Assembly: GCA_015179125.1 (NCBI GenBank)
Contig: WHVA01000264.1
Span: 1-64,000 of the forward strand
Length of the DNA stretch: 64,000 nucleotides
Direction of reading: 5' to 3'
DNA from: Gautieria morchelliformis
Taxonomy: Eukaryota > Basidiomycota > Agaricomycetes > Gomphales > Gomphaceae
The translations under genes and the position numbers were made by a program. The notes beneath the pieces were generated by a model. That model searched no databases and was not told the origin of the DNA. It was given only the letters and a program-made list of their open reading frames with translations. Positions 6,059-54,000 of the stretch are shown here, in pieces; within the stretch, counting starts at the first letter, position 1; each line of letters starts with the position of its first letter.

Positions 6059-6130
6059 CATGATATTAGATCGTCGAATCCTTACTTGACATATCGCTCA
6101 ACAAAGTACAGGGTTGCGCCCAGATTCAAA

Positions 6131-9100
6131 TCAAGCACGTTTGCGCTTCTTGTTAGCTTTCTCCTTCCGTTTCTGAGCGCGGACCTGGTAACGATTTCGT
6201 GAAGTGTTAGACGATATATCACATCACGGCTCACCTCCTTCTTCATCCTTGCGTCAACCATTGTGTACCGACCTTTGACGCCTTTGGGCCTACCCTTCAA
6301 GCCCTTATGCGCACCCTTCGCTACAACAATCTTAACTTGACTCTTGGTTTGCTTGCCCTTCCCGCTAGAGATCCCCTTTCTCATCAGTTTCTCGATTTGA
6401 CTTGCCTTCTCCCGCTCGCTCATATCCGTGGTCTCGTTGACGCCCTCAGCTTTTTTCATCGCTTTCTCTAGTCGTAGTGTAGCACGATGTTTTTTCCTGG
6501 CCTTAGCCTCAGCCACTTTCTTGATAGGTCGTGCATCTAATGCCCGCTGTTTAGCGCGAAGGGCAGCAACAGCTTCTTTGGTAACGGGAAGGTTGGTCTT
6601 GTAGTGTTTCGACTCGTCATCAAGGAACCAAGATGGCAGGCCATCCCGTGAGTTGAACGAGTAACGATTAAAACCTTCGTCAATAAGCTGTGTTTTTGTT
6701 TTCTCCCGGTTCACAAGCTGCTGCGCTAGCGTCACGGCCTCTGGGGTGACCAAACCAAACTCTAAGGAAAATAATGTATCAGTGCTATGGCTGCGTTTGT
6801 AGGGCATTTTCACCGACTCTTGATCGTGGCCTGCTTGATTTCGTCCTCGTTTTCGTCCGCAACGTCCCACATCTCAACATCGTCCTGGGGATCTTGAGGG
6901 ACAATTTCAAAATCATCATCTCCTGCATCAGATACGGCAGGCTGCAGTAATTGTCGTCAGAACAACTTGATTATTATGCATGCAGTGAACGAACCCCAGT
7001 TCCCTCGACCTCTGCTGAGGCTTCACTTCCTGTGTTCTCCGAATCACCTGTCATACCTGCTGGAAGCTGATCGGAAGGAACATTGATATCACCCAGTTCC
7101 TTAAACATATCTTGCTCGAACCAGACCTGCGCCGTCTTACTGAGGTGCCCGGCGGACTGGGGATCGCTGAGTTTGGTAACTAGTTTTGCCCTTTTATTGT
7201 GTGTGGGCGATTCCGCACTGTCGACCCTCTGTCTCTTCTTCGTGACAGGCTTGGGGTCCTCGTCGGATTCAACATCAGATGAATCCTCGCCGTCCCTTGC
7301 CTTTGCCTCAGCGGTCTTCTCCCATCCCCCTTCCTCGCTTTCCTCTCCCTCGTCAGTGTCTTCGTCACTTGCCCGTGCATCGAATCCTGCCCACTCTCCG
7401 TCTCTTTCCTTGTTCTGTTTCCTCGCCTCCTTCACTTTGAACTTTGCGTCCCGCTCACTCTTCCGCTCTCGATAAGAATCATAAAGGCCATCCAACTCTT
7501 GTTCGAGTGCATGAACTCTGCGTTCTTTTCGCTCTTCTTCGCTCATCTCGTGATCTGTTTCCAGTTCCTCAGCCTCATCCGCGCTATCTTCGTCCTCGTC
7601 ATCCATTAAGTCGGTAGTAGTACGTGATATCTTAGACTTGCGTTGTGTTGATTCTTCGGTCTCGAGGTCGAAAATATCCTCTTGCCCCATGTCAAGACCT
7701 TTGTCTTCCAGATCTAAACCAATGTCTAATGGTGCAGTCATGCGAAGCTGCATTCGCTGGATCGTGCGAGTCTTGACCTCGTTGGCTCGCCTTCGCTCTC
7801 GTTTTGCGCGAGCTGCTGCTTCGGCGTTAATACGTTGGAGCTGTACAGCGCTGTCAGACAGGTCCGCACGTATTTAGAGATTGTAATGGTAGTTTACCTC
7901 CTCCTCTATCACTTGTTGTTCATCAGGTTCTTCTGTAATCTCAACAACCTCTGTCATGTCGTCCACATTTTTGGTTTTGACATCTAGCCCAGTCTGCGAA
8001 CATTACACTAATGAGTTGATATGGAGGGGAGAGAAAGCTTCCATACCTCTTCCCGAATTGCAGTTCGCCATTTCAATAACGCCTTGAAATCACCTTTACC
8101 AAGGACCTTCAGATCCTGGCAGACAGCCTTGATTTCTGGTGTAGTGGCATCCAATGCTAGCCATCTACAGGAGAGTAGAACACATAAAACGGTCTCACAA
8201 AATCAAATGGATTCAACCCACTCCTTTTCCTGCTCCGTTTGGAAAGTGATTTTATTCACGGTTCCAAGTAAGCCAATTGCATCAGTACCAGCGATAAATT
8301 CAGCCGCTCCAGCAGTCTTAAACAACGTGTAATCCCCGTCATCGTATCCATCTCGCTTCCGACGTTTTTTTTTCAGGGTGGAAGACGTTGGCCTGAACAT
8401 TGTTTGCTGAAGCTCCTTTGTCTACTGCTGCGGCAGTCATGGTGAGATCCTTGAAGACATGCTTTGGATCAAGGAATCTAGGATCAATATGTTTTGGAGC
8501 CATGAATCCACGGCAAACGACAAAGATTTCGGCAGACACATTCCTGAGTAGAACATGTATACAACAAAGGCTCACAGTAACTCAAAAGATAACTCACCTC
8601 GATGAAGGAGGCTTGGTGGCTTCCACTTTATCAAAGAGCTGATTGAACACCCACATGAGATTGTTGTAGTCCACACTCCTGAACACCTTCGTAACGAAAG
8701 TCCCGCCTTTCACAAGGAACTCAACCGCAAGTTTCAGGGACATAAGGACAAGCTCGGACTGTCCGTATGCATCCTGCACCCATGCTGTTCCAACATTTGG
8801 CGCACCGTCGTGGAGAACAATGTCTGCCCGCCAGTCTTTTAGTTCCCCACGTATGAGGTTACGACACTGTGGAGTTGTGATATCTGCTGCAAATGTAGAG
8901 ACCTTCGGTATGGGCTTGATAGGGACCAGATCCACGCCTGGCATACCATGTGTCAGAAAGAAGGATCGTAACCCTGGTGGAAGGATTCTCACCGACGATG
9001 ACACTATTGACTGGCATGTATTTACTGGCGACCTGCAGCCAACCTCCAGGAGCTGCACATAAATCTATACAGCATCTGGCAGACTCAAGGAAAGAGTATT

Positions 9101-9262
9101 TTTTGTTGAGCTGAATAAGTTTGAACGCAGAACGTGCACGGTAACCTTGCTCTCTAAAAAGGGGGTTAGCGATGATACTATCCTCATGCAGCTTACACAC
9201 TTCGCAAGCTTATAGTATTTGTCCAAACGATTTTTGCCTGTTTTCTTTTGTGTCTTTCCCAT
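6131..9262 (-). CDS. SPB1: SPB1, AdoMet-dependent rRNA 2'-O-methyltransferase (pre-60S)
   Basis: Homologue of nucleolar Spb1/FTSJ3, which 2'-O-methylates the 25S rRNA A-loop during large-subunit assembly. ATG at 9262 opens with [21 protein letters not shown]. Intron 1 follows, then the FtsJ domain: the SAM-binding [14 protein letters not shown], the LHDGAPNVG loop, and Lys in [11 protein letters not shown] and Glu in [10 protein letters not shown] completing the K-D-K-E set. The middle region ([13 protein letters not shown]) and acidic low-complexity linker match the family. The Spb1 C-terminal domain ([34 protein letters not shown]) ends in a basic tail and TGA at 6131-6133. About seven short introns. 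Oddity: just after the methyltransferase domain (8365-8373) a run of nine A on the coding strand puts the two halves in different frames; eight A would join them. Whether it is a consensus error or a real event cannot be told from the sequence. Confidence 0.9.
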
Positions 9263-9782
9263 TTTGCAAGGAGACGCAAGTCGGAAGCTCTTCTAAGAAA
9301 TTTACATTACGTCACGTGATCTATGCTATATATAGCTCCATCAATAACGAAAACAAGAAAAAAGAAATCTGTGGAGACATCGATATCCTGACTGTGCTGG
9401 GATAAAAGTGACTAGTGTGGTTTTATAGGCGCGATGTAAAGATTTGGTCGAATTGAATGGCCATTATAGCTACTGAGACTTGCTTGAAGCTTGTCAATGA
9501 TTCAGAGCTCTCAGCTGAGAGCATGCATGTTGGCAGCCACATCCAGTACTGATGCGCACCAATCACATAGTCAATATTGTACGCTCGCCGGATAGATTGG
9601 AAATGGTATGATCGCAATGCACGGCCAGCATACAAGTGGGAAATGATATCCCTCTGGCAGGCTGTTGATACAAGTAGATGATGCGACGATGGTGGAAAAG
9701 ACCCAAACAATCACGAGTGCATGTTACGAGGAAAAGAAAGCTCGGACGATCCATGTATATTAGAGGTCTAGATCCTAGCGCT

Positions 9783-11006
9783 TTAGCACTGGATCAAGTG
9801 TAAATACTGTTGGATCATCGCTACGACACCACCAACTGTTGGAACCCAAGCGGGTAAAGCATAGAGTATCTGAATAATAGTGGCTAAGGTGCCAGTGATT
9901 GGTGTTGGGAGTTGGTGTTGGGAGCTGGGAGTTCGAGTTATCAGGTTCACCGCCTTGAAAATGTCGGCGACCAGCTCCTTGCCTCTGTCCGCAATTTCCT
10001 TCGAAGGCTGAGGGTTGAAGATGTATCCATATATGGTGCCACAGAGTGCCCAGGACAAAAACCACCCCCTCTGAGCACGGGATGATATTCCGGAGCTAAA
10101 GCGAGTGACGCCACCAACAATAGCCAAGTAGACAGCGAACTCACAAATGCCTACTAACATCCATGACTGTTGGTCACCGACATGCCTCCATCGTATAGCG
10201 TATTCAGTGCCGTCACCCCTCCACTGTATGGCGTTTGCAGTGCCCGAGTCTCCGCCATCTATCTCCACCTCAGTAAGATCGACGTAGCTCCCAGTGAAAA
10301 GGATAGCGATGAGATTGATGATACTGCCGAGGGCATATGGAATGATCGTGTAGGTGAAAGCACCATAGCCATACGCTGCCACTTGAGGGTCGGAAACAGA
10401 CAGGAGCTGTAGTGTAGCAAAAATAAGTTGAAAGGTTCCAACAAGAACCTTGATGGCAGCTGAACTGCTCTGGATCATCATTGGAACGAACAGGTTGGCT
10501 GGGGTTCCCCGCGGAACCATGATGAAGGCTTCATCCTCGCCGTTACCCTGTCGGAGCGGCTTTGCTCTCACAACGCGAGTAGGAGATAAAATGATTGCGC
10601 CAGGAGGCATGTCATGACTTCTGACCCGGACGCAAGCTGCGCCACAATTGATTGCTTTCTGCATTTGTTTATGGATTGGGCCGACTTCCCCGCGTGACAA
10701 TAGCGTTGAGTATATCAAATCTGTCAAAGGGATTTGTGCGGACGAAGATGGCAAGAGAGCTGCCATCACATAGCGGAGTATCGTGTCAGATCTGCCTAGG
10801 CCAGGCTCAACCTTGATTGTGAGGATATGGCTTGCGTAGACGGCTAGCAGCTTGATAATCACTGCGTATGCCTTGCGGAGTCCGCAGCTTTGCAGAGGCC
10901 CAAGGAATGTTTGCGCGGAGGCGTGTCTGGCGGTCGCGAGGAAGATCAAGGACACAAATATGAGCGAGGCAGGGTTTAAGCGGAAATGAGGTGCGCAAGG
11001 AATCAT
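9783..11006 (-). CDS. polytopic membrane protein with signal peptide, function unknown
   Basis: Single-exon coding region of about 407 residues. I prefer ATG 11006 because it begins a canonical signal peptide (MIPCAPHFRLNP then a hydrophobic run, cleavage-like ASA-Q). The open frame continues to an ATG at 11150, but a good GT-AG intron (11027-11084, 58 nt) lies between and would break that frame, so it is more likely a 5'UTR intron. Hydrophobic segments suggest about six further membrane spans (for example KAYAVIIKLLAVYA, AAIKVLVGTFQLIFATLQLL, YTIIPYALGSIINLIAILF, WMLVGICEFAVYLAIVGGV). The family looks like the uncharacterised multi-span proteins common in mushroom-forming fungi; no catalytic motif is visible. 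No function assigned. Confidence 0.7.
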   Translation of the reverse strand: MIPCAPHFRLNPASLIFVSLIFLATARHASAQTFLGPLQSCGLRKAYAVIIKLLAVYASHILTIKVEPGLGRSDTILRYVMAALLPSSSAQIPLTDLIYSTLLSRGEVGPIHKQMQKAINCGAACVRVRSHDMPPGAIILSPTRVVRAKPLRQGNGEDEAFIMVPRGTPANLFVPMMIQSSSAAIKVLVGTFQLIFATLQLLSVSDPQVAAYGYGAFTYTIIPYALGSIINLIAILFTGSYVDLTEVEIDGGDSGTANAIQWRGDGTEYAIRWRHVGDQQSWMLVGICEFAVYLAIVGGVTRFSSGISSRAQRGWFLSWALCGTIYGYIFNPQPSKEIADRGKELVADIFKAVNLITRTPSSQHQLPTPITGTLATIIQILYALPAWVPTVGGVVAMIQQYLHLIQC

Positions 11007-11150
11007 GGGCGCGGCTATTCTTGTGCCTGTGGAATGGCGAAAGTCATCATTATGACATGTTTCGCGTTGTAGAACAGGACTCACCACCAGAAAGCAAGCG
11101 GTAGAGCGTGTAGAGAGTCCCCAGACCTTTCCAGTTTTATGGGAATGCAT

Positions 11151-11589
11151 GAATTCTCAGATAGACGTCTTCGAGATATCATGCCGAAAAACCCCGTCTA
11201 TACCCTGAGTCGATTCTATATCATCACACTAGTCGATCGATGATAGTGGCACTGGCACTGGCACTTATCGCCCAACGAATTACCTTTTATGGAAGCACCT
11301 TACAGAGTCCTACTGCGAGCCGTGCCACCGGCAATGCGAAACACAGCTGAGTGAAATATCCACTTGACACAGATTATCGGTGCTCCCAGTCCAAATGATT
11401 GCTTTAACCTTTTCAATCAGAAACATTTCAAGCACGCAGCACTCCATGGGTTGGAGCATCCCCAAGGAAGGCATCCATGCTAAATCAGTGTACCTCATGT
11501 TTTCTGTCATGCTGCGCATCTTATATAACTACATGAACGTCCTACTAGTATGCAGCCGCGCGTGACTGTGTTTGTAAACAATGTATGAT
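11151..11589. other. intergenic region, no gene seen
   Basis: Short open frames only, with no family resemblance and no convincing splice pattern. It holds the presumed promoter of the minus-strand membrane-protein gene and borders the SLS1-derived repeat. Confidence 0.4.
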
Positions 11590-12510
11590 CGACAGGCTGC
11601 TGGTGGTACATTGTTCGCACCGTAGCCTCGAGTTGGCCCTCTTGCTAACGGCTCTGAGTCTTGCTCTCTCCAGGTTGACTGCGGTAAGGGGACCTCAAAT
11701 CGCAGCGTTGTTGAGGTCGACGGAGAGGCGACGGGCCCAGTCTGTCCACCGGATGAGGCGACAGTGAGTGTCCTGACTCAAAGGCGATGAACTGCTGCAT
11801 GTATTTGGAAGTCTAGTTTATGGTAGAGTAACATGAGAGAATAGGTCATTCTTGCTGCAATGATCCTAAAATTTCCACGAGCCACGCAATGGCGGTACTG
11901 AAGAGACTTGGGACTCGCGGGAGGTGCAAAAACAAAGTGGCCAAACGTGGTAACAAAGTATCGGGGGAAGAACTAAGTCGAAGGCAACCATCATCTAAAC
12001 ACTCGCCTTAATTGCAGTTATCTTCACTTGCTGGAGATGATGCACTGTTGCAGAGTCCAAGCCAGGGTAGGCCTAGCCTTTACGCAGCAATTGGGGCTGT
12101 TTACTGATCCACAGTCTCAAGGGAATTGAACACACCTTCAATAATTTGCACCTTTACTACCTGTGAGGCCGCTAGACCACATAGCACCATTGCGTGTTTG
12201 ACCCAGCCAATCACACACTTTCCGGGGGCGATACATATAAGGAGCTCCCAGGAAGTGATGCAGAGAAGGAGGTGACGACGTGGAAGGATCTTCAGGCATG
12301 GCCACGTTAGCCTGACTCGGAATGTTCAATAAAAGGTAGGCTATCTGGATTAGTGACGTCGAAGGGAAAACAGAGAGTAGATATGAGAGGGAATATAGTC
12401 GGATGGTGGATCCTCTGATGTCGATAGGTATGCCAGCATAGGTGGGATGGGTCGCTGATTCTGACGCACGGTGGGAGCATCATAGAGGCACATTGAGCAA
12501 CCAGGCAGGA
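11590..12510 (-). pseudogene. inverted partial copy of SLS1
   Basis: Read on the minus strand this region is a diverged copy of about 4230-5290 of the SLS1 gene. 11590-11790 matches 5100-5285 (TCATCCGGTGGACAGACTGG, TCAACAACGCTGCGATTTGA and so on). 11790-12120 matches 4650-5070, including the intron at 4792-4852. 12130-12510 matches 4225-4640, where the peptide EDPSTSSPPS...HHF...VCDWLGQTRNGAM is still readable. Stops and indels break it and no start or 3' end of the gene is present, so it is a fragment. Intron retention shows a DNA-level rather than mRNA-derived duplication. Confidence 0.8.
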
Positions 12511-12512
12511 AT

Positions 12513-12745
12513 CGTATAAACACTAGGACAGCGCGTTGAATCGTGGGAGAAGATTCTTGATGGAGAAGCCAGAGGCAACGGTAGTCAAAATACAGCTAAG
12601 GATCAGCAGCACCTATGTGGATTAGCGACCTCGAAGGGAAACACAGCGTAGATATGAGAGGGAATATGTCAGATACTGAATCCACTAATGTCGATAGGTG
12701 TGCCAGTATAGGTGACGAGAGCCACCGAGACTCACTTAGAGGTGT
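12513..12745 (-). repeat. second unit of a composite repeat carrying an SLS1 exon piece
   Basis: A ~100-bp segment not found in the parental SLS1 gene (core GATGGAGAAGCCAGAGGCAA, then AAGGATCAGCAGC) is followed by a second copy of the SLS1 piece GACCTCGAAGGGAAAC...GTCGATAGGTGTGCCAG. The same association, in the same order, is seen at 14990-15360, so the unit is a repeated composite module rather than a simple copy of the gene. Confidence 0.7.
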
Positions 12746-12789
12746 TGGAAGGTGAGCCATATCTCCTGTGTCTTTGTTCAACCTCTCGC

Positions 12790-14985
12790 CTTACTCTAGA
12801 GGCGAAGGGATCCACGAGGATGATAATGACCCGGAGCCGCCGGCGGGCAATCCCCTGGTTGACGCACTACAAGTTGAATCCGAAATGAGAATAGAGCCAA
12901 CCCTCCAGTGCTATTAGCTGTCCCTATACACTTTGCATGATACCGTCTGCTCCTCGTTTGGTCTAAAATCGCGCTTGGTCTCGGGAGCGCGGCCGTACCG
13001 TGCCGCATGCGCGGATAGAGGAACTTCCTCGGTCTCCAGCCGCATGCGCTCTCACGTATGCAATCAACATCCCGTTCTGCCCCGTAAGCACCATGTCGGC
13101 TGTGGATGATGCACGCCAACCGGGCATGTGCATCTCGCCAGCTATACTTACTTTGGCACCGTTTACTGGCGGTGGACATATGGTGTATGTCATCTTTCGG
13201 GGATATATATATATCACTTGCTTATCGCGCTAGAGGGGTTCGGCCGAATTCCTTGACTGAAACCATCCAGGATTTTCGGGGAGGTAGGTGCCATAGGCGA
13301 GCCTTGTGTGAAGGCGCAGCTATTTGGGGCAGTTATATTACAGGTGGATCAACCCCTACACCGAGAATCTTTGTGCCAGGCGGTACGCTATGTCCATTTC
13401 CCCATTCCCCACACACACAGTCCCCCGTTGGCCTGTGAAAATCAAAGATTTAGACTATGATTTTATAGTAGGGTTACATAGTCAGACTGGTCTGCTGGAC
13501 ATTTCCCAGCGGCTGGGCTTTCCTGAGGCGGTTTCAGTGCCGCCCCATGAGATTCCCCGCCAGCATATCCTTCTAATAAAATGTCAGGGACTAATTAACA
13601 CACCACACGCAAAAAAAGGATGGTATACCTGGCTCAAATTCAAGGTTTTGATATTTCGGCCAACCACATTCACCAATTCAAGGTGGGTGTTGATTTCTTG
13701 GCAGGTATAATTATGAGCTCCTTGGGCAGCGATGGGCATAGCAGTAATATGCTACAATTATCACCATGGTCATACAATGTTGGCGGAGGGTATACCCAAT
13801 CAATGCGGAGTGGTCATTGGTCTTGTCGAGTGTCCCTCCCGAGGCGAGAAAATCCGCCCACCTGCGATCAAATCCTGAGTTATGTTGGAATACATTACCG
13901 TGCTTTATAAAAAAGTTCATGACCCTCATTGCCTATGAAACTGTTGAACAATGGTACTCAAGCACCCACTGTGCAACTCACCAAGTATAAACAGCCAAAA
14001 TGTACAATTGTTGAAGGCATACTTTTCTGATATTGTGCTGGTTCATGCAGATCTCCAAGTAGAAATATAGGCACACATCACTAGGAAGATACTTTGTCAA
14101 AAATCAGGAGCATTGAATAGGCTGTGAAACTACCCATGTCTTCTTCTAGACTTTGTATATGCCTAACCCACCCATAACTTTGGTCACATCTACACACCAT
14201 CAGTCCCAAACGTGTTATTAAGAGGGGGCAACTTACAATAGTGCTTCCGGGAATAATGGTATTTCGCCCAGGCCATTATCCCTGGGTTAGAGGTGATGCT
14301 TGCTTTATGTAAATAATTCGACAGCCATACCATTCACGGAATAGGTGCAAGATTGCCTCGATGTCCTCAATAATGGCTACAGATGGCATCAAGCAGCAGA
14401 AACTAGCACATAGGATTGATGCCTACACCTTTGAGCTCTACCGGTTTCTGTTTAACACCTGCAAGTGGATAGGCAAAAGCGACCCATGTAAGACGGGGCT
14501 GATGGCCTTGCTGATGGCCACTGGTTGCTGATCTGTGATCTGGTGGGCAGATGGGACTCGGAAGCGGGGGTAATATCCATGCTGTGTGTAATCTAGACAA
14601 TTTGCCCTTTAAGTATCGCCCCTATGTATGGGCCCCGCTTCTCAGGCTGGATTCCAACAAGCAGGATCAAGAATCAATGGGCGTGAAGACTCCAAACTGC
14701 CTATGCAAGTCGAGTCCTCAGCACTTAGTCCCAGAAAGTCAGTGTCGTTCTGTACAGGTCTGCCTTGTCACATACGAGATCCACCCGCACGCAGCGAGAC
14801 TCCTCACTCCTTCTCCGACACTTGGGACCGATCTGTTTCAGTTGAAGGGGCCGCATTATCTATCCAACGAACCGTCCTTTTCACAGGATCATTCTCGGGA
14901 ATCTTATGAATCAAACTTTTTATTGTCGGAATATGATGAGGACGAGTCCAACCTGGAAGGTGACCGGTGAAGTCCAGACTGCGAG
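12790..14985. other. gene-poor region between SLS1-derived repeats
   Basis: No supported coding gene. There is a short TA run near 13202-13215, and an open plus-strand stretch at 14628-14909 with a Ser-rich translation that resembles no family I know. Possibly relic sequence; nothing else recognised. Confidence 0.35.
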
Positions 14986-14989
14986 CAGA

Positions 14990-15360
14990 GTGATGGACAC
15001 GGCTGAATGGTGAGAGTAGGTTCTTGATGGAGAAGCCAGAGGCAACGATAGTCAAAGTACAGCCAAGGATCAGCAACATCTATGTGGATAAGTGACATCG
15101 AAGGGAAACAGGGCATAGATATGAGACTGGGAATATGTCGGATGCTGAATCCTCTTCGATAGGTGTACCAGCATAGGTGGGATGGGTCGCTGATTCCGAC
15201 GTACGGCGAGAGCATCATAGAGGCACAATTGAGCAACCAGGCAGGAATCATATAAACACTAGGATAGCGCGTTGAATCCTGGGAGTAAATCCAGGATTTT
15301 TGATGGAGAAGCCAGAGACAAGGTAGTCAAAATACGACGCCAAGGATCAGATCGATCAGC
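14990..15360 (-). repeat. dispersed composite repeat with SLS1 fragment (second locus)
   Basis: Carries two copies of the GATGGAGAAGCCAGAG segment (at ~15028 and ~15304) around one copy of the inverted SLS1 piece (15085-15250, e.g. CCAGCATAGGTGGGATGGGT and AGGCACAATTGAGCAACCAG). It matches 12330-12740 closely in sequence and order. It borders the PPR gene promoter. No intact reading frame. Confidence 0.7.
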
Positions 15361-15636
15361 AGTATCAATAGTAGCAACTTAACTGAAAAAGAGTTGTGGA
15401 TGTGAAACCTTGGCAGAAACCAGATCCAAGGTATCGGTCCGTGCCAGACAGTTGGGTCGACGCGCTCAAATTCTCTTGTAGCAAGTCCAAGGACGCGGCC
15501 AGCGGTCTCCACACGGTTTTGGTGGATGTGTGCGTATAATTTGGCTTAGGTTTCTGCATGCTGACCCTACTATTGCATCTCGTAGGTCACCCAGCTCGGG
15601 GTGCCTCTGACTGGACTTTTCACGCCCTGTCGGCAC

Positions 15637-18164
15637 ATGCTCTGGAGAGCCGGCAGTGGTTATAGGCCCTTTCCACGCCCAATTGTTGCTAAAAGCATAC
15701 TTTCAGATCTTCCTTCTCGATGGGTATCTCTACCCGTGCACACCAACGAGGCGCTGCCTTCCCACAAGCCTCCTGGAGAGCCTCCCATAGAAAATGTCCA
15801 TTTCAGGTTCACAGGCAAGGTGTCGAGAGCTCTTTTATCCAAGTTCCCACCCGAAACAGCTGCATTTGTCTCTGTTATCGAGGAGCTCTCTGTCAGAAAT
15901 TTGCCCAGAGGGAGGATTCTTGCCACTCTCCAGACATTGTCATCCGAGTTCGACATATTGTCGAGCCCCAAAAGAACGTGTGCACTTGTACAACAAATGG
16001 TGCAGGCAGGATTTCCAGACCGTGCTATGCACATCTTGAATATCGCCCACAGTGTAGGCCTCGTCCTACCACACAATCAGTACGAACAAATCGCATATCA
16101 ACTGGCCCTCCGCAACTACTGGAGATATCTTCGAATCGTTGCTACCATGGCTCGCAGAATGACTGGTTCTTGGACAGTGCGGTTGCTAAATTGGGCCATG
16201 CGCTCATACATCGAAACACAGGAGTACGGTCTCCTAAGTGCAGCACTCGGCGAATTCGAGCGGTGTCAGCTCAAACCCACTCGCCGATCGTACCATCTTC
16301 TTGTCGAGGGACATCTTCGAAACAGCGACCTCAGTCGCGCACGGGATTGCCTGGTGGGAATGCAAGGCGCTGGGATAGACATGAACGAATCAACGTACAT
16401 CGTTGTCATCAATGCTTATCGTGCATTGGGACCAAACGACACTGTAGAGGCGCAGGCGTTCCAGGCTCTCCAAGGTACCGGCGGAACTTCGGACACTATG
16501 ATCCTGAACGGAATTATGAAGTTGCGCATCGATGCTGGAGATGTCCCTGGCGCTCTTCGTGTCCTAACATTATTTACGCTGTCTCCGGATTCCGACAACG
16601 GCGCTGGCGTCATTGGAGAAGGCGGCAAAAGGGAGGAAATGGCTCCACCATCTGGATCAACAACCTCCAGCGCCCCCCTTGCCTTCCTGACAAGGCAACG
16701 TTCAACATCTTATTGATGCTCCTGGCACGCCGTAAAGGGCAGCTGAATAACATCTTCCGTATTTATCATCAGATGACTTCAGCGGGTCATCAGGCCGACA
16801 CCGATACAGTAACAGCTCTTGTTGTGGCATACTCCACTGCTAGCATGACAGGCTCTGCGCTTTCGTTAGTTTACGACATGTGCAAACACCACCATCTTTC
16901 TGTCGACAGGAATGAGTTTAATCTTCTCGGCCGCCTCACGGAAGTTACTGAACCCAACCTGGACCAAGTTTGTTCCGTATCCCCAAATTCGGATGTATTC
17001 AACGCACTTTTACGAGCCGTACTTCCTCAAAAAGGGCTCATTGGTATGCGACGCGTCCTCCGTATCATGCGGCAAGCATCTGTGCTGCCGGATGCTACCA
17101 CCATACAGATAATACTCTCATATTTGCACGATGCTCATCATATTAGCCCGCGAAGCCTCATCAAAGTCCTCGCAGTCCTTATCAATTTCCCCGCCTATGA
17201 AGCGTCGCTCACTGTACAGCACCTCAACACTATTCTTCGTAGCCTCGTCCGCGGGGAACTTGACATCATCAGGACTAGCAGTTGGAACGCCTCGGCTCAG
17301 CGGGTCCGGTTCGGACACGTCCCTCGGTTTTCGTCACAACGCTTGTCGAAGGTCGCTCCAAATTTTGACCCTACGGCCGGAATTTCCCTGGACTCCTTTC
17401 AGAGGCGCATCGGCAAGATTTCCAAGCCTATCGTCGAGAACCTTTTGGAACGGCAAGTCATGAGCGATCGCATGACGTTTGCACTCCGCATCAGACGCGA
17501 CGCAGTGATTAAACTCGACATTCGATCCGCAGAGCGGGCCTTTGACATCATGGTCGCTCGAGGTATTCGCGCAAACGGATATCACTACAGCGCATTGATG
17601 GAAGGGTATGTGTTACTGGGACGTATGGAAGACGCCAGAAACGTTATTGAGCGTGCCTTTCTTGCTGGCGTCAAGCCCAGCGTCATCATGTATACGATCC
17701 TCATCAACGGATTCGGCAGGCTAGGGCAGCCAGACTTGGCAAAACAAACGTTTACCGAAATGGTGGCTCGCGGTGTCAAACCTGACTTCGCCGCCGTCGA
17801 TGCCGTGGTCAGTGCTTACTGGTTCGTAAGGGCGTACAAGACGTCCAGGAACTTGCTTCTTGACCTCTGGCCGCTTGTGGCGCAGTTCCCACCAGCCCTT
17901 CAGGGCGCCCCACTTCGCGAATTGCTAGCGTATCTACGGACTCACAGGGGCAGTTCCCCGACGAAAACGGCGCGCGCTCCGGAATCACGTCGGGAACGTT
18001 TACGAAGAATCGCAGTTCGCCGCACGATGCGCCGCACCTTATCGGAGTTGGAACAGTGGCAGCAGGTAGAAGAAGCGTTGTCGTGGGCAAAAGCGGACAT
18101 AGGTTTGGGTCATATGTTACAGGCTGACATCTCTAATACAAGACGAGAATACGACTCGTTTTAA
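15637..18164 (+). CDS. mitochondrial pentatricopeptide-repeat (PPR) protein
   Basis: Long, mostly intronless gene of about 840 residues. ATG 15637 starts an Arg/aromatic-rich, acid-free leader (MLWRAGSGYRPFPRP) consistent with mitochondrial import; an earlier GTG in frame is less likely. PPR-type helical repeats are readable, for example RRSYHLLVEGHLRNSDLSRA, ATFNILLMLLARRKG...YHQMTSAGHQAD, YHYSALMEGYVLLGRMEDAR and VIMYTILINGFGRLGQPDLA followed by EMVARGVKPDFAAVDAVVSA. The C-terminus is basic. PPR proteins bind organellar RNA; the target is unknown. Oddity: the first ~350 codons and the rest are in different frames. They join if the C6 run at 16673-16678 had seven C, giving continuous text through a low-complexity linker. 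A short cryptic intron cannot be ruled out but none is convincing. Confidence 0.82.
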
Positions 18165-18326
18165 CTTGGGGGAAGAAGTGTCGTCATAGAATCATGTGAC
18201 GTTTGATCATAGAATCATACAATGCAAGTATCATCGATGCAGATGAAGCCGAGTTCATAAAATAAATGTATCAAATTTTCAACGACAGCGAAACATGAAG
18301 CCCACAATGAAAGCAGAAAATAGATC

Positions 18327-20327
18327 TCAATTTCTTTGAAATTGACCATCCAACATCGCCAAGGCATCCCGAACGCCTTCAGCGTCAACCTCGAGCACAC
18401 GCTGTTGGCCACATTGGAAGTGTAGCGGGGAACCCGACGATGACGAGCCGTGACCGGGCTGATTATGGGTTTGTGTCAGCTCAAGATATTGTGCGTGCGG
18501 GTGGGTAAGAAGAATGGGCATATCATCAGACCCTCTATCAATGGTCCGACCGTCAGATGGTCGTCGCGCAAGCGCTTCCATGTCAGGGTCAGGGGATGAT
18601 AGTGTGATGCGCGGTCCTGTACATTTCGACCGGCGAGCCACCACTTCGGCGAGAAGCGTTAGGTCGGCGAAGGCGATGTTGGGATGTGATTTCAACTGAG
18701 TCCATGCGGTATTACAAGGCACAGTCTCGGAGGCTGATAGATGGCCTGGAGAAGATGCCGAGGATATGGAGGCTGATCTTGAAGCGCCAGATGATGGGTC
18801 ACGATCGGGACCGGAGCCGGAACCTCCAGATATATTCGAACTGCCGCCCCCGCCACAACCGAACCCTGGATGGCATGTAGATCCATTGTTGGGGCAGCTG
18901 GCACATTCCTTGACCGATCCTCCGAGAGCTGCACAGAAGGCTTTCCCAAAGGGGTCGTCGGCGCATGCTAGGCAGTTGGACGGGTCGCCAGTGCAGTTGG
19001 GGGAGGCTGATCGGGCTGGGCGGTGAGGTTTCTCTGCCACAGCCTGTGCAGGAAAGATGGGAAAAATAGGCGCATGCGTATTTTGCTGTGATGGTCGCCG
19101 ACGAGGAAGAGGGACGGGAGGGGAGTAGGCAGGTAGGTTATCCAGGATCGAGGAACTGCCACTAGACGAAAGGGCGACGGGGACTGCAGCAGGAGGAAGT
19201 TGCGGTGTTGAGCTTATACTGATACTTCCCCTTGATTCCATCTTGACCTCCCGGGGAGAATGTGAGCCCATATGGGCTGTCGACGTAGTATTATTAGGAA
19301 TAGAGGGGGTTGAGCCCGGGACGTCTCCATGTACGGCAATACGCGCGGTGACCTGTTGGAGAGCGAGCTCGCGACACACACAGGGAGTGTCGTCGGAGCA
19401 AAAACCACAGTCAACCATGTCAAAATCAAAGGAATTGACGCCTCGATTCTCGTTGACGCATCCAGGAGCTTTCCCGGAAAAACCGGTGAAGAGGCTGGCC
19501 ATGGCGGGTTGCTGACAATGTTGTGGATATCCAGGAGGGTTGGGTGAGCGAGCGGAGAAGGACATGGGGAATAGGGGTCGTTGGGAACAGATGAGGCGGC
19601 ACTGTCAGACTCTGGAGAGGAGACCATTGAAGAGGGGGAAGGTACTAGGGACATGGCGGAGGATGGAACAGAATCTGGGGAGAGAGCCGTGAGACCGTCT
19701 GTCTTTATGCGTTTTCTCATGGACGTATCCCTGGACGGGTATGGAGTAATGCTATCCTCTCTCCATCGTTTGCGTTCTGTCTCGGGGGATTTCTCTGGCC
19801 TGAATTTGCGGAGCTCATCTCTGAGGCAAGCGTTCTCCTTGCGGAGGGCGGCATTTTCCTCCTTGAGACGTTTGGCGATGTTCTGCAACGCGACATTGCG
19901 CTCCATCTCGCCCTGTTCATAGGACTGAACGCGAGCCTGCAAATCTGCCAACTGGGACTGTTTGCGCTCGCGAAAGGCCCTCTGTGCGGCTCTGGAGAGG
20001 AACCTGGTCAGTAACGACGCACCAAATCGCGCACAATACTCACCTGTTTTGTACCCTTCTACCTTTGGAATCTGGCTGAGGAAAGCAGGGAAAATCAGCG
20101 CGTTTCGAGTGGCGTGAGCGTGCAACGCATACCTCCATAGACTCATCTACAGGAGGGGCGGGGGGGTCCTTCTTGGGCTTTCTTCCAGGTTTTGGTTTGG
20201 CAGGAATGACCCATTCTTTCGAAGCTACACACGCGTCAGGACTCGCGACAAAGGTGGCAGTTAACACAAGCCAACCTTGTGCCCAGAGGGTGGAGGAGGA
20301 CGCGACAGCAGAAGTCATTGGGACCAT
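18327..20327 (-). CDS. hapX: HapX-like bZIP iron-response regulator
   Basis: Regulator of the HapX type, which represses iron-consuming genes under iron starvation together with the CCAAT-binding complex and senses iron through Cys-rich motifs. Exons in order: N-terminal MTSAVASSSTLWAQ; an intron; then SKEWVIPAKPKPGRKPKKD, the Hap4-like CCAAT-complex-binding motif; a short exon GRRVQNR; then AAQRAFRERKQSQLADLQAR completing the bZIP basic region, followed by the leucine-zipper heptads. Downstream are Cys-rich clusters: CGFCSDDTPCVC (about 19370-19415), CTGDPSNCLAC and CASCPNNGSTCHPGFGCGG. The start could be ATG 20327 or 20318. Oddity: the bZIP part and the Cys-rich part are in different frames, joined if one base is added at the GGG/CCC run 19506-19508. 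A weak-site intron ending at GTCAG is an alternative. Confidence 0.82.
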
Positions 20328-20719
20328 GCACGAGGACGAGGAGACGAGGGTGAGCGGAAGAGTAAGAGCGAAAGGTGGGAAAGGCCTGAGGGAGGCTTGC
20401 CAGGCTTGCTTTTAGAGGGACGCATTATGGCATTTCATTATTTTGCTGGATTAGTTGTTTCCAATTTCGAAGGAAAAGAAATGATTAATTATGGATCAAA
20501 TAGGAAAGATGCCCTTTTGCGGCAATCAAGAAATCTGGGCCGGGATTACCCGCCCGGCGTTTACCGTAACAACGCCACAATCCCGGCTCTTTTCAGATTG
20601 TCGCCCGAATCTGGCAGTCAGGGCCCAAAGGTTAATCGCGGCTCTTCAATGAAACCGGATCCTCTGCTAATTTGGGATTAAACTCATTCACAATACACGC
20701 TCAGCATGGACCACGCATC

Positions 20720-23649
20720 TCACTCAACAATCTCCTCTTCCATCTGCTCGATGACCTCATCGATCCATTCGGCCACCTCTTCCTGCTCCTCCTCGCCCTC
20801 CTCCTGGGCCACCCCCCTTTGGGCACCGCCCGGCTCCCCGACATCTCCCGCTTACACCGAGCCCGCCAGGCATTCCATTCGTCTACCAGTCTCTTCCTCT
20901 GCGCAATCAGCTCCGCGCTCACCTTGCCCTCCTCCGCCACATCCTCTTCGTCGAACGTCCGGCTGTACTCGCGCAAGTTCTTGCGGATCGCCCGCTGCTG
21001 CTCCTTGGTCAGCAGCGTCCGCGGCCGAGGTCGCCACACAAATTGTTTAAATCGGTCCAGAATGTGCTTCTCTAATTCCTGGCCCTTGAAGTCCCATATT
21101 GCGTACCCATTCTCCAGCTATAATAATAATTAGATTGCCGCACACATGTCGGTGGCGTTCGTGGGACCCCGAAAATATTACCAGATCGAGAATTAGCGTG
21201 GAATGATAGAACGAGAAGCTGAAACCTAAAACGCGTACCGTGTGTCGCCATGCGCTCGCGCTCGTGCTCAGATAACGACCGGAAGGATCCCACTCGACAT
21301 CTGTGACTCCATAATGATCTGCAGTCCCCAGAAGTTGGATCCCGCTGCCCCACTCTTCCTTCGACGCGCTTTGACTCGCATCCTTGCGTCCCCCCACGTC
21401 CTCTAAATTAAAGTCTAGGTCCCAAAACTCTAGCTCGGACTTAGACGTGGAGCCAACGGTGGCGAGTACCGCATGTCGCCCTCGAGGTGACCACCTAATC
21501 GTGTTGCTTGACCTGTTGGGAAGCGTCTCTGCATATCATACAAGGAGTCCACCGGCGCAGCGAAGTCCACCCAAAGATAAGACGAGAAAAAAATTTGAGC
21601 GTCCAAGGTTGACCAGAATGGTAATTAGAAACAGACACCGTACAGAGTAGGAAGACCCACTTAGCAGCTTGAAGTCACCCTTTCCCCGTTCCAGCTGGTA
21701 GAAGCTCACGTCTGTCTTAATTGTTGCGACCGGACCGGGGTTACCGAGATTAGGATCACTGCTCGAAACTATCGCGAACCGTTCCCCGCGTGGTTCCCAT
21801 GAGAAATCCGTAACGGTATCTGATATGCGTCTGCGTGTGAGCCTCTCTCGGATCTCAAGCTAAGAAATCGAGGCAAGGGAGAGCGGGTCGGGAGAGAACG
21901 GTAAATGCGAACTACAAGACTGGTGGGGCCGCCACCGTAATGATGAAAAGCCAAAAGTCCATTCGTACCTTTTAGTTCCACCACTTCGACAGGGAAATCC
22001 TTCTCTCGCACTCGGAATATTTCCAGGTTGCAGAAAATAGACTTCTTGGTTTTGGTGTGACGGTCAACTCTTACGCACAGGAAATCCCCTTGATTTTGCC
22101 AATAAAGTTTGCACTATAATGAGTTCCATCAGCCGTCAAGCCCGGGACACATTGTCAAAATGAGATACGTACGTCGGTGACGTTAAACAAGTTCTTTTGA
22201 CGAAGAACAGTGCGATTGGGAAAGCTCATGAGTGTTACCCTCGCCGGCTGGTTCTGAACTTCGGGTGTCCAAAACACAAGCATGTTCTCTTTGGGTAGCT
22301 TCTTGGGTGATTTCGCCGCAGCAGACGCTCCCTTGATAGTAGCAGTCTTATCTCCTTCGTCGCGGTCTTTGTCACCGAGTGGACACCATTCGAAGTCGAC
22401 AACGCCCTCTATTTTCACACTTTTCTTGCCCAAAAGACCCATGCTTGGCAATTCGTATACACTGATCTGCTGACCCGGGGTGACGCGCGCGACATATTTA
22501 TCGTCCCCACTCCATTTTAGTGCAGGCCATGGCACGCCCTGCTTCTTTTGCGCATCGTCCATTGCGCTCGGACCAGGTAGTGCATTGACCGCCGGGAAAG
22601 TGCGGAGTAGATTGCCTGATTTGATCTCCCAGACGGCGATGCAGTTACCCTCATCCTCCGGGCTGAAGTACTGTGGTCCTTGGAGAGCACCATCTGGGAC
22701 GACGATGGGCTCGTGTGACCAGGTCACCAGGTACTGCTCGCATGGTGAAAAATCGATGAGCTTCACCAATGGATGAGCGAAACGTTGAAGAGGCTGCCAT
22801 GTCGATCCACCCCAAAGACGCACGCCTTGGCGGTGCAGTGTAGCGAGCAATGTTCCAAGAGGCGACCAGGCAACATACAGATCTGTCCAATTCTACAGTG
22901 TTTTCAATTTGTGCACCCCACAAGTCAAGGGGAGGAACGGACTGCTCTTTCGTAAGCAACCTCGGTGGTGGAGGGCTTCCCATGCCAATGTATTTGAACA
23001 TCGTCACCCCGGTACGTGACATACTGGTCGCGACCTTGAGCGTCCCCTAGCCACGCTCGAAGATGTTCCTATAAAAGCGGTTGTTGGGTAGGTAAATTGT
23101 GAATGGCAGATACGTACACGAGGCTTATACTCCTCTGGCTCTGGATCGACATACGTTGGATTCATGTTAGTATATCGCTCAATATCCGAGAAGCGATTGA
23201 TTATGAATGTATGTTTTGCGTCAAACTGGAAACCTTGCATCGCCGTCAAAGCGAATGTAGCTTCATCTGTATCTTTGAACTCCATAAAGAGGTATCTAGT
23301 AGATAGTTCTGATTTCGTTTAGCACTAAGACGAAGATGAGGATACTTACCCTTTGCCTTTTCCCGAAGTGTCCCATGGCATCGACATCGCATCTGGTTTG
23401 ATGGGGGCACCCTTACGACTAAAATCTTTGCTAATTTTGTTGAGCAGTCTATCCAACTTGGATTGATCGATTATAGGTACTCCGTCGACCACCAAAACGT
23501 TTTCAAAGCCTTCGATGGGCTTAACCTGGTATCTAGTGTGGCAGTCATTATGATGAATATCGACAGTCAAGGACGATATACTTCTCCTCGATATCAGCAT
23601 AATCTAGGTCGTCATCCTCTAGCGGCAGGCCATTTGCGACGGGCGACAT
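20720..23649 (-). CDS. PRT1: eIF3b, translation initiation factor 3 subunit b (Prt1)
   Basis: Scaffold subunit of eIF3, which organises 43S pre-initiation complexes. ATG 23649 gives [20 protein letters not shown]; intron 1 follows at once. The N-terminal RRM ([27 protein letters not shown]) is followed by WD-type propeller text such as [98 protein letters not shown] and [14 protein letters not shown]. The C-terminal helix contains [10 protein letters not shown] and FVWRPRP. About eight short introns. Oddity: the expected acidic tail ([17 protein letters not shown], stop at 20720-20722) lies in another frame from the preceding exon. A seventh G in the coding-strand G6 run (20812-20817) would join them. 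Confidence 0.92.
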
Positions 23650-26168
23650 GCTTGGTGAATTTTGCTGGCGATGCAACTTCGGAGTTTAAAATTCTGGTAA
23701 GGGAAAATGAAAGTGGAATTGACCGTGTGTACTGTACAGTACTGTATGAACGAGCTTGTCGTTTATGCCTCCCCTTTGCCTGCTTATTCTTTTACTCGCT
23801 CAAGGGCGATTTTAATCCTGAAGAATTAACTAAAGATGCTTTCGACACAGAAAACGTCTCACTTTCTCTCTCTCTATCTGGAATTGTTTTGCCAGCTTGA
23901 ATTACCGACGGACCTCAATCACCCGATACTCAGTTCAAAACATTCATGGCTCTCTACCTCCACTTATAGAGTGAGTGAATCAAGATCATCAATGACTCAT
24001 TCTTTTCTCGCCGGTAAATTTAGATGCATGGCAACCGTGGAATGGAGAGTCACGCTGTCGCTCTATATTGGTGCAATGTATATCGCTCGCTGTAGACTCA
24101 GAGCTGCACTGCATCAAACTTCCGGCCTTCTCGTGGGATATAGTACGTTCTCGTGCATGCACAGGTAAGCGTCTTCCCTTCCTGACGAAATGTAAAGAAA
24201 GAAGGTCCTTGTCAGATCCTGTGACGCCAATTTTAACTCAGAGTGTCGCTCACATATTAGACTCCTCGGAAATCCTGTCTAACAGTTTCCAACGCAATTC
24301 ATAACAGTGTTAAAAAAAATGATGATATTTGGGGGCCTTCGAAACCTTTACGGCCGAAGCTCTATCTCGGCGTTGGCATCGGGATCCTGAGGATACTGTT
24401 TTGGAAGATCATCAGTGAGTACGACATGAACCTAATGTGCTTCCAGGAAAATCTGAAGAATAAGGTGCGGAGTTGAACTCTTCCAAACCAGAAGGACAGC
24501 TTGAGAAAGCCGGTTAACGGCATGCCCAGGAACAGTCTATACCACAAGTGTTCGTTGACCCGAACAGCGCCGGTATGCGGGGGCAGAATGCGAGTAACGT
24601 AATGATGGTCAAAGTCGACCAGGAGACAGTGGTTTGTCGGCCTTCTGCGTCTATCGCTGACAGGCAAGGCACTCGGATGATGACGGCGCGAGGTGCAGAT
24701 CTACGAGATATCGGAGGTGCGTTCAGACATTGACGTTTCAGTGAGCGCCATGGAGAGCGCACCAATCAGCCGTTGTCTACATTAGGTGCGCATCGAAAGG
24801 CCGATCCGTTCGCAACAACGGCGTTCATGGCAGTAATTGATGATGGCTTCGGGCCGTACAGAAAGCGGGTTGTCTGCGTGAGTCCGCACTGAGAGCGCGT
24901 CGTCAACGAGGATATCTGTTCAAGTGCTAGACGAGTTGATGAAGTCGCGGAGGTTAAGGTGATAAAAATGACGTGTTTGCCGAGGTAAGCGCCTTCCGAC
25001 TCCGATAAAATCATTGACACTGATCCTGGAAGTGGAGCATTGACAGACATAACTGTCTGTACTTATTTCTGACTTTTCCACCTAACAATAGGTTATTAGA
25101 TCACAGCATCTGTCGAGTCGATTCGTCTGATTACTGTGTACTTTTGTTATCTACGCCTTTGATACCAGACAAGCCCGACTCGAACGTACCGCGGCCCCAG
25201 ATATCTATGTTTGACATGTGCCTGTCGAATGCGCTGCCCGGCTCTCGCAACACAGATATAATCTCGTCTAGCTGAAGTTTTAGTTCACTCACCGCGGGCT
25301 GTCCTGAAGGGACGTAGGCCATACCGAAAGGCCGTCCCGTCCGGCTCTGGCGCAAAAAGAATACTTGGATGGCCTGCAAAGAAACACTCGAGTCTGTTCC
25401 AATTTAGAATAATCACATGTACACGCCACATTATACGTTGATCGTGATCCACACGTGGACTCAGCAAGCCAAATAGACTACGAGATTGGCTTTGCTCACG
25501 TGCATGTGCCTGTGGGGGTATGGAAACCCTCTCCTCCATAGGAGGAATCCAGGAAAATTGGGCAAGCCTCGCTGCATTCCTTGGGAAGACAAGAACGCTA
25601 CGCGTTAGTCGCTAACCTGTTGATAAGTCATATGCATATGTTGCTTATATCCATGGCATTGCCTGCGTCGAATTCATCATCGCGTTAGTCGTATATGGAT
25701 GTTGTTACTGGAGACACTCGCCCCTCAGCGCTTCTAACCTTGTCCTTCTCCGACTCATACGGTGTTTAACATAGACGTCGTATACTCGGCGTCCAAATTC
25801 ACTGACTCAGGCCGAAAGGAGAAGACAATAAAAGCAGAAATTTAAACATATCCGCATCATGTGCCACCGCGCAATAGAATGAGGAATATTCCATTCCGAC
25901 CCAGTTTCGGCGTTCAAACCAAGGTGCAAGATCGAAGGCTTGAACAAAACAGACTCACGGCTGGCATTAATTTCCGAGCTCTTCTGTGCTGTATACAGTC
26001 AGACTATGATGGCAAGAGTAATATGGTTAGTGAACTGATCATGATGGTTTGGCTCATGCCCTGAGTCAGCAGGAATTACTCGCGGACTTTCAAACACCCA
26101 TGGTGAATTTCTGAACAATTTTTTATCGTCTGCGAGCCTTCTTAGAAGGCTAATAGCTTATTTCACAG
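23650..26168. other. gene-poor region with possible minus-strand exon remnants
   Basis: No gene recognised with confidence. On the minus strand a plausible 84-nt terminal exon (24348-24431) after a CATTAG acceptor encodes VVLTDDLPKQYPQDPDANAE and stops at TAA. Open stretches with ordinary composition at 24766-25050 and 25131-25540 could be further exons or relics of the same unit, but I could not assemble a continuous protein. The right end should hold the promoter and first exon of SLX9, whose start codon I could not fix. Confidence 0.3.
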
Positions 26169-36478: not shown

Positions 36479-36528
36479 GAGCGTGGTTTGAAATGTGAGA
36501 CTCACTCCGACAGTGTTCTGCATCCACT
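36479..36528. promoter_or_regulatory. about 50-bp bidirectional start region NUFIP1/MEMO1
   Basis: Only 50 bases separate the two predicted ATGs, so promoters and 5'UTRs must overlap each other or the opposite gene's first exon. Position is inferred from the two start codons; no promoter motif is claimed. Confidence 0.5.
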
Positions 36529-42463: not shown

Positions 42464-42652
42464 TCCAGGCGAATAAGGCAGTTGTGTTCTCGCTCGGTTC
42501 ACTCCGACTGACTTTCAATCACTACTCGAAGGAAAGCAAACATTTCACAGCCCTGTACCATAACTCAAGGATGTGATACATGTGCAGCGTCTGAGACGTG
42601 TCATAGAACATGGCGCAGCAAGGTTATAGAAAATGTGAGGTGGTAACCGAGT

Positions 42653-46799: not shown

Positions 46800-46929
46800 C
46801 GCTTGGCGTCACGTTTGTCACACACGCTAATTCGGCCGAAGAGGCGAGAGAGGATAGGCCGTGAGGAACGTGATTGCACTCTCTTCTCCGTCCTATTGTA
46901 TTTACCTCACAGCTTATCAACAGCTTTCC

Positions 46930-48830: not shown

Positions 48831-48839
48831 GTGGTGACA

Positions 48840-49957: not shown

Positions 49958-49979
49958 TCAAGAACAATAGGCAAAATAG

Positions 49980-50702: not shown

Positions 50703-50707
50703 ACGTC

Positions 50708-50974
50708 TGTTGGAGATACGATGTCATACTAGGACCCACATGAACCCACATACGTGTCCGTACATACAGTTCGAACCCCGCTATCGTCCCTTTTCCTCAG
50801 TCGTTCACGTCCATCCGAATGCCTGAGGTAAGGCCACTCCATTCCACCCATTAGCGTACCCTACTTACGATATCGTTACTTGCACCGTAGCTTACTGTAG
50901 CGCAGGTAACATAATCTCAGTCGTTCACGTCCATCCGAACGCCTGAGCTTACTGTAGTGCAGTGCAGTTCAACA
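50708..50974 (+). repeat. copia 5' LTR (267 bp)
   Basis: Begins TG and ends CA. Contains an internal direct repeat: CTCAGTCGTTCACGTCCATC...CGCCTGAG occurs twice, each copy flanked by CTCAG/CTGAG inverted ends, plus a duplicated CTTACTGTAG. Confidence 0.95.
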
Positions 50975-51094
50975 GGTTATGGGCCAACCATTGCACTACT
51001 GATACATTCTTATAGCATCCATCGTGCAATAACTCTTTGGGATCCTACCGTCCTTTCTCTTCCCTGGCGCACATAGCCTCCTTATCTCCTCGCA

Positions 51095-54000
51095 ATGCCT
51101 GCTCCGTCGTCAATCACCTCTTTCATCCCCGAAAACTGGGCACGCCCTAAGATGTCGAAGCTACTCCTGGGCGGAGAAAACTACGACTCTTGGGCTAGTG
51201 AGGCGAAAGCCCTCCTTGCGACGAGCGGCCTCTGGAAATATATTGACAAGAACGATCCATTCTCGATCCCCCCTCCCAACTCCCAAACGTCCGAGAAAGC
51301 ACTGTGGTCTGCGAAGAACACCACTCTCGTTTTTACCATCCAGCTTATGATGGATTCTTCTCTCCACCACATTATATCTAATTGCGCCACCGCCGCTGAT
51401 GCGTGGAACCGGATCCATGATTCCTTCTCTACCCTCGGTCCAATGCACCAGATCTCTCTATTGAAGCATGCTCTGTCTACTCGCTTTACCCCTGGCGTCG
51501 ACATCAATGTAACCCTGCTCGCGCTCGAACATACCCTGAAGGACATGTTTGCGGCTGGACCCATCAAAGAGGATGATTGGATGATCATGATATGTCTAAA
51601 TGCACTCTCTCACGACTTCTTCACCCCCATCCGCGAGCAGTTGGAAGGTCTACTCACGTCCACCAAGGATGGCATCTCCTTCGACGGCCTCAAAGCCCAG
51701 CTACGCTTCGAGGCATCCAAGGTCCGCCACGCGAACCAAGCCTCTGCCGCCGAAGAAGCTCTTGCTGCGCTCACCGCGAAGAAACCGCCCAGAGTCGCTT
51801 GCTCCAACTGCAGCAAGCCGGGTCACACCAAAGAGAAATGCTGGCGCCCTGGCGGCGGCGATGAAGGTGGAGGTCCTCGCGCTCACGCGAAGAAAGAGAA
51901 GGAGGCTGCCACCCTGGCTGCGGTCACCAACATTGTGGGGGAGCCTAAGAGCGATTCAGCCAATGTTGCCTCCGCAATACCTTCCGCGATTCTTCCAGCG
52001 CCGTCGCGCCCGACCACATTCTATCAGCCTGACGACCACCTTTACGACTCCGACTGGTCGTTCGCGTGCATGAACGGTGAAGCTACGTGCAATGTTGACT
52101 GGCTAGCACACGTACGTGACATGAACTCTATCCCACGCTTCCTCGACTCTGGAGCATCAGTCCACTGTACACCATGCAAGAGCGATTTTGTGAAAATAAC
52201 GAAAATCGTGCCCCGTCCCATCAAAGGAATGAACGGGTCTGTTGCTCAAGCCGTTGGCATGGGAGATGTCACAGTGAACACGATAAGCGGATACCACCTC
52301 ACCCTACGCAATGTCCTTTACGTCCCTGACGCCGCTATCAGGCTGATATCAGTTGGGAAGCTCGGTGACGACGACAACTACATGTCGGTCTTCTCCAAAG
52401 ACCAGTGCCGTGTCTATGACCAGGAGAAAAGAGAGGTACTCAAATGAACGAGGACGTCCGGGGGCCTATACCTCGTGCCCACCACCTCCTCTGCCCAAGC
52501 CTATGCCAACCTCGCCAGAGCGCCCTCCAACCTCGAGACCTGGCACAAACGGCTAGGACACGTCAACTATCAGTCTATCATTGCCATGGCGAAGAAGGGT
52601 TTAGCCACAGGTATGCCCACCGACCTCTCCTCTATACCACCGACCTGCGAACACTGTATATTCGGCAAACAGGCCAAGACGCCCGTACCGAAGGTTCGTG
52701 AGGGCGAGAGAGCTAAGAGCATTCTCGACACCGTCTTCTCTGACATCACCGGGCCTGAGGATGTACCCGCCGGTGGAAAGCTTTATGCGTTGAACTTCAT
52801 AGACGACCACTCCAGATACACATGGACGTACCTTCTCGCAAAAAAGAGTAATGCCCCTGCTGCTTTCGCCGAATGGCTGTCACTAGTTGAACGCCACTCT
52901 AACTGTATGGTTAAGAGACTCGTCACAGATAACGGGGGGAATACACCTCTAAACTGTATGAGGGCTACCTGCGAGAACGTGGTGTCCAACACCTATTCAC
53001 TGCTCCGTATACATCTGCCGAGAACGGGGTAGTTGAGCGAAGTCACCGTACCATCATGTCTAGAGCACGCTCCATCCGATCCAATGCGAATCTCGGCCCC
53101 AGTCTCTGGGGGGAGTGTGTGATGACAGCGGTATACCTCAAAAACCGCACGCCCACCAGAGCTCTTGACAATATGACCCCACATGAGGCCTGGTCCGGAC
53201 GCAAACCTGACCTCTCACACCTGAGAGAGATTGGATGCAGAGCATTCGTGCTAATACAGAACCGACATGTTGCGAAAATCTACAATCGCTCGATAGAATG
53301 TGTGCTAGTTGGCTACTCACAAAACTCGAAGGCATACCGATGCTACAATCGCACCACTGGTCAAATCATTACCTCACGAAACGTGACCTTTATCGAATCA
53401 CAAGACGTCTGCCCCCGCCCTCTACACCCGGGACTTATAGTTGGAAACAGTGAGAAGAGCGAGAGTGACGAGAACGAGAGCAGAGACGAACCTGCTCTAC
53501 CTGCGGAGGATGACACCGATGTGGTTGAAGAGGCTGTGATCGTGCCCGACACACCTGAACCCCCTGAGCCCACAGTTGCTGCCAACCCACTACACCGTTC
53601 CTCACGCATCCCCAAACCCTCTGAAGCAGGTGCTGCCATGCGGAACCTCCCTTACACCAGCCGCACTGAGCGCGCGGTCACAGAAATCTCTTTGGCCAGT
53701 ATCGCCGCCCGACTAGCCCGGTCCACCAATAGGAATGCCGAATTCGAAGCCAATTTCGTCGAAGACATGGCCCTAGCTGGCATAGTACATGAGGAGGATG
53801 ACCCTACCTCGTTTACGGAAGCACTAAAGGGACCCAACGGTCCGACATGGCAATCAGGCATGGAATCAGAACTACAATCCATGAAGAAACATCACATGTG
53901 GGACCTCGTACCTCGGAGCTCCGTCCCCGCTGGAAAAAGGGTCATCAAAAGTAAAACGGTCTGTCATATCAAACGCGACGAGTCTGGCAAGATAGCCAAA

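Follow-up and report, generated by a model that had tools for sequence, protein, structure and literature searches.

The window analysed here comprises the first 64,000 bases of contig C298 (WHVA01000264.1; 151,405 bases) in the genome assembly of Gautieria morchelliformis (122 Mb in 1113 contigs), and its genes and introns appear fungal in character. Six of its genes appear to change reading frame at or near a short homopolymer: an SPB1 homologue, a gene for a PPR protein, the gene of a HapX-like bZIP regulator, the eIF3b gene, a gene for a coiled-coil protein and a copia retrotransposon. A frame change is supported in five of the six and is plausible in the sixth, the coiled-coil gene. The breaks in the host genes (SPB1, PPR, HapX-like, the tail of eIF3b and perhaps the coiled-coil gene) are likely to be residual one-base errors of the consensus, given the evidence from SPB1, the bias toward lost bases and the excess of frame changes near G/C runs; the organism itself presumably carries intact DNA at these sites. 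The break in the copia element is nothing out of the ordinary for a decaying transposon: it is private to this copy, and natural decay is enough to account for it. Taken as a whole, the feature is probably an artefact.

Frame changes in the host genes

An earlier note on this DNA had listed six runs, all of which were found where it placed them: A9 at 8365–8373 (SPB1), C6 at 16673–16678 (PPR), CCC at 19506–19508 (HapX-like), G6 at 20812–20817 (eIF3b), C4 at 27451–27454 (coiled-coil gene) and G6 at 52934–52939 (copia). The break intervals given below were obtained from the likelihood (codon score) of the break point along each overlap of open reading frames (ORFs), and the calls are those of a home-made frame model described in the next section.

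In the SPB1 homologue (8206–8581, minus strand), two overlapping frames meet at the A9 run. The upstream piece (80 residues) aligns to solved Spb1 chains over residues 188–239, and the downstream piece (72 residues) aligns to Spb1 from residue 236 onward. Both frames match the same protein, and the two matches overlap at residues 236–239, at A9. The downstream frame also contains the DUF3381 domain of Spb1 (E = 3.3e-16), and A9 lies inside the break interval (8341–8387), although the frame model did not call this break. At the level of the assembled sequence, a frame change at A9 is proven. The homology is continuous across the site, and there is therefore no room for an intron. The direction of the change is an apparent gain of an A, opposite to that at the other sites. 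Spb1 is essential in yeast.

The PPR gene (15586–18164, plus strand) is read in two frames, with a break interval of 16625–16691 that includes C6. The Pfam PPR match before the break is weak (E = 0.0014, under the Pfam cut-off) and that after the break is strong (E = 2.5e-23); the frame model placed a call at 16655. The HapX-like gene (18327–20146, minus strand) is likewise read in two frames. The part before the break matches bZIP weakly (E = 6e-4, under the cut-off; best solved-structure match, E = 0.03), and after the break there is a cysteine-rich motif, which we take to be a feature of HapX. The frame change predicted by the model, at 19514, lies in the break interval of 19456–19577, where CCC is one of eight runs of at least three bases within about 120 nucleotides (nt).

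In the last exon of eIF3b (20704–21117, minus strand), the eIF3b homology covers the exon piece as far as residue 98, up to the G6 run, and is found on the upstream side only. The model predicts a frame change at 20816, and the break interval of 20798–20851 contains G6, so the change is at or near this run. The 43-residue tail after the break had no family match, and its structural matches were only to a designed repeat protein and were unconvincing. The frame change alters only this unconserved C-terminal tail and leaves the conserved part of the protein in place. The coiled-coil gene (27195–29401, minus strand) has an ORF overlap of 124 nt (27443–27566). The codon score favours a break at 27498–27566, an interval that has T4 and T5 runs and is away from C4, although C4 is still allowed when the overlap is read by eye. 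The piece after the break scores as coding; it had no family match, and no frame-model call fell in the gene.

These results narrow several claims of the earlier note, according to which each frame changes exactly at a short run with conserved text on both sides. The run lies within the break interval in SPB1, PPR, eIF3b and copia, whereas in the HapX-like gene the position is left open over the whole interval and in the coiled-coil gene C4 falls outside the favoured one. Database matches stand on both sides of the break in SPB1, PPR and copia, but not in the HapX-like, eIF3b and coiled-coil genes. Five of the six sites had been counted as a missing G or C; only three are located at G/C runs (PPR C6, eIF3b G6 and copia G6), and SPB1 shows an apparent extra A. 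The argument that essential genes cannot all be dead does not hold for eIF3b, whose conserved part stays intact despite the frame change.

Frame changes in a wider sample

A coding model that allows introns and frame changes was run on the window, on 80 kb more of C298 and on twelve 10-kb stretches from 11 other contigs (the window plus 200 kb). Earlier and looser versions were set aside: introns and gene ends absorbed frame changes in them, and the first ones let frame moves skip stop codons. The model made 15 frame-change calls over about 99.6 kb predicted as coding, and these figures are indicative, because it was trained on the sample on which it was run and the calls include the sites of the earlier note. 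Four calls are in the window (PPR, HapX-like, eIF3b and copia), five in the rest of C298, all in repeat copies, and six elsewhere. The last six divide equally between the repeat-rich stretch L028 and one GC-rich gene of stretch L039.

Fourteen of the 15 calls are of a missing base and one is of an extra base (P = 0.0005 for at least 14 of 15 at even odds, not two-sided). In simulations with 90 losses and 90 gains the model recovered 42 and 39, respectively; losses and gains are thus recovered similarly, and the bias toward missing bases is therefore not built into the model. A G/C run of at least five bases was found within 25 nt of seven of the 15 calls, against 1.98 expected for coding positions drawn at random from the same genes (P = 0.0025). 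At most three of these seven are the earlier note's own sites, so the excess near runs extends beyond the six genes, as does the bias toward lost bases. For A/T runs of at least five bases there was no clear excess (one call of 15, against 0.54 expected). By length, a call lay near 5 of the 108 coding G/C runs of five bases and 3 of the 24 of six bases; among coding A/T runs the counts were 0 of 82 at length five, 0 of 22 at length six, 1 of 3 at length seven and 0 of 3 in the next class.

The errors would arise if the length of a run is misjudged in the reads and then left unsettled by polishing. The errors would mostly be losses of a base within or close to G/C runs; in SPB1 an A would have been gained within A9. 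Poor local coverage near the contig start may add to this, the five host sites lying 8–28 kb from that end.

The gene of L039 (6861–9254; C182:106861–109254) is an observation in its own right: its coding signal passes through three successive frames, with three missing-base calls. It resembles a conserved basidiomycete protein and is presumably a host gene. The five ORF pieces around L039 6425–9251 had no Pfam match.

The copia element

The copia element lies on the plus strand, with an internal coding part at 51077–55380 between a 5' long terminal repeat (LTR) at 50708–50974 and a 3' LTR at 55408–55674. The two LTRs (267 bases) align without gaps and have five differences, all transitions. 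The first frame contains the integrase core (rve, E = 3.8e-8); the second contains a weak rve_3 match (E = 0.0015, under the cut-off), then SH3_retrovirus and the reverse transcriptase. The frame-model call is at 52933 and the break interval is 52933–52959, with G6 inside.

Four sibling copies (94–97% identity) share a different run length at the G6 site and have a single frame there, so the frame change is private to the window copy. The same copy has a private stop at 52445–52447, where both siblings that cover the site (L045 and L046) have a sense codon, and a 30-nt deletion that is private relative to all four siblings. Two of the siblings, too, show private losses of one base, and in one of them a two-base loss occurs as well. 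Since the window copy bears other private lesions, in addition to its diverged LTRs, its frame break needs no consensus error, although such an error could also have produced it. The family is abundant, with at least 66 matching rows genome-wide (40 of the 126 candidates were scored) and two other full-length matches at 96–97%.

Evidence on the error rate

A number of observations weigh against consensus error as the source of the host breaks, or against a high and uniform rate of it, in addition to the indicative character of the model figures. In a whole-genome search for four conserved families (TCP1, HSP70, DEAD and kinase), none of the 76 junctions of neighbouring matches showed a frame break. 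No junction had an effective gap of −35 to 35 nt; the short gaps were mostly 44–72 nt, which is the intron length here, and one of −110 came from nested rows. At the window rate of 5 per about 21 kb, the 34.9 kb of row interior should contain about eight breaks if that rate applied throughout and every break were detected. The kinase table had 146 rows (125 of 455 candidates scored), of which only 67 had neighbouring rows in the junction count; the DEAD table had 36 of 109 candidates scored, and a sugar-transporter table stood outside the count. Six CCT loci read by eye also had no break outside introns within the stretches covered. These loci hold no G/C run of six or more bases.

The frame calls themselves carry further reservations. 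Nine of the 15 are in transposons or stretches rich in repeats, in which genuine deletions often occur, and a natural deletion bias may contribute. None of the 11 G/C runs of length seven and not the single run of length eight was near a call, so lengths seven and eight together give 0 of 12 while one of the three A/T runs of length seven was near a call. In repeat copies of at least 90% identity, among 34 pairs of runs of at least five bases, one pair has a one-base and two have a two-base difference in length, a comparison too weak to decide; the spectrum of run lengths over 264 kb, equally too weak to decide, shows no clear truncation. Long G/C runs of at least 20 bases exist in the genome, at 183 overlapping 20-mer positions with both strands counted, and the longest among the places listed reaches at least 28 bases, so the assembly does not generally cut such runs short. 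More generally, alignments of near-identical repeat copies over 27.3 kb had 1360 mismatches and 48 one-base insertions or deletions, and thus differ mainly by substitutions.

A published profile of a nanopore assembly (PMC12007338) links deletions to homopolymers between two and eight bases long, in the portion of that source available to us. The same portion reports about twice as many deletions in A/T runs as in G/C runs. This mismatch in the bases affected makes our confidence in a consensus error slightly lower.

Among genes under constraint, SPB1 and PPR are affected while the conserved families elsewhere are clean. The difference may be explained by conserved cores that are poor in runs or by lower sequence quality in the contig's first 28 kb. 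The systematic under-calling of G/C runs proposed in the earlier note is thus partly supported, by the bias toward missing bases and G/C runs in the wider sample, but a uniformly high rate is not seen.

Alternative explanations

The main rival to consensus error is that the breaks are real alleles, carried by one nucleus of a dikaryon or produced by a collapsed mosaic of two haplotypes, with function supplied by the other nucleus. A single copy of 6000–25900 was found in the assembly, as expected if the haplotypes were collapsed or the isolate were a monokaryon; among 11 matches in the assembly, none was a second haplotype of this stretch. A test of mating type by STE3 search was uninformative, since the controls had no match either. 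In the available part of a study on Trypanosoma brucei, collapsed haplotypes create apparent frameshifts (PMC8445201), which shows that such a collapse is known to have this effect. On the other hand, it would be unusual for one haplotype to have several null alleles in a span of about 20 kb, and the 14:1 bias toward missing bases together with the bias toward G/C runs fits error better. We therefore regard this explanation as unlikely. In its most pointed form, a stretch of one nuclear haplotype would contain several genuine null alleles of essential genes, the partner nucleus would shelter them, and slippage at A9 might provide a partial rescue of SPB1; this seems very improbable. Real mutations in the isolate, reflecting decay of these genes, fit the copia element well (private stop, 30-nt deletion and 5 of 267 LTR positions differing), and eIF3b and the coiled-coil gene would only lose or change their ends. 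SPB1 and PPR, however, would be cut mid-gene although conserved text is kept on both sides, and decay of the host genes is accordingly improbable in our view.

Residual consensus error also has to be weighed against two explanations in which the DNA is correct and the genes work. Slippage has been reported at runs such as A9 (PMC5009743, PMC6260861, in the parts available), and A9 of SPB1 is of this run type, so that transcriptional slippage or ribosomal frameshifting might correct tolerated frameshifts. The sites have no slippery motif or run type in common, however; two of them are not located at a run, and the direction in SPB1 differs from the others. Tolerated slippage, which the earlier note had named as the alternative, thus finds no support here, and we give it hardly any credence. 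Short introns or misread exon ends might be suspected because the genes are intron-rich and introns of about 44–72 nt are the rule. A search within 160 nt of each run for GT-AG introns of 41–120 nt with a branch site and the right length class gave no fitting candidate at SPB1, PPR or the HapX-like gene. It gave five candidates of 50–113 nt at eIF3b, the coiled-coil gene and copia, all with unusual donors. In SPB1 the uninterrupted homology speaks against an intron as well. Introns are less well excluded for the HapX-like and coiled-coil genes, where the break is not located, but as a general explanation they are exceedingly unlikely.

In practice, annotation of this assembly would show SPB1, PPR and the HapX-like regulator as broken or split genes, and claims of gene loss that draw on it need reads. 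Were the breaks real, a dikaryon that shelters the loss of essential genes would be a notable finding.

Other repeats in the window

A diverged inverted repeat pair is present at 4223–5281 and 11597–12510 (74% identical over 1069 columns), with related pieces at 12341–12714 and 15004–15350. In addition, 62148–62646 and L020 2909–3407 (C298:66909–67407) differ at one of 499 bases. The pair may be the LTRs of a young element that neighbours a gypsy-like gag (58854–60863). Rfam gave no match in the window at the gathering score.

Comparison with known systems

The copia copy resembles a decaying LTR retrotransposon in every respect examined: it combines a private frame change, a nonsense codon, a deletion and diverged LTRs. 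The collapsed haplotypes of T. brucei, as described in the available part of PMC8445201, are similar in that the consensus contains frame breaks carried by no real molecule. They differ in that repeats and nearby allelic variants are involved there, whereas there is no sign of a second haplotype here. The host-gene breaks share with the long-read homopolymer errors in the available part of PMC12007338 the one-base frame changes, mostly losses, at or near short runs in genes expected to be intact. In contrast to that profile, the excess here is at G/C rather than A/T runs, one site is an apparent gain, and the changes are known here from the consensus sequence alone.

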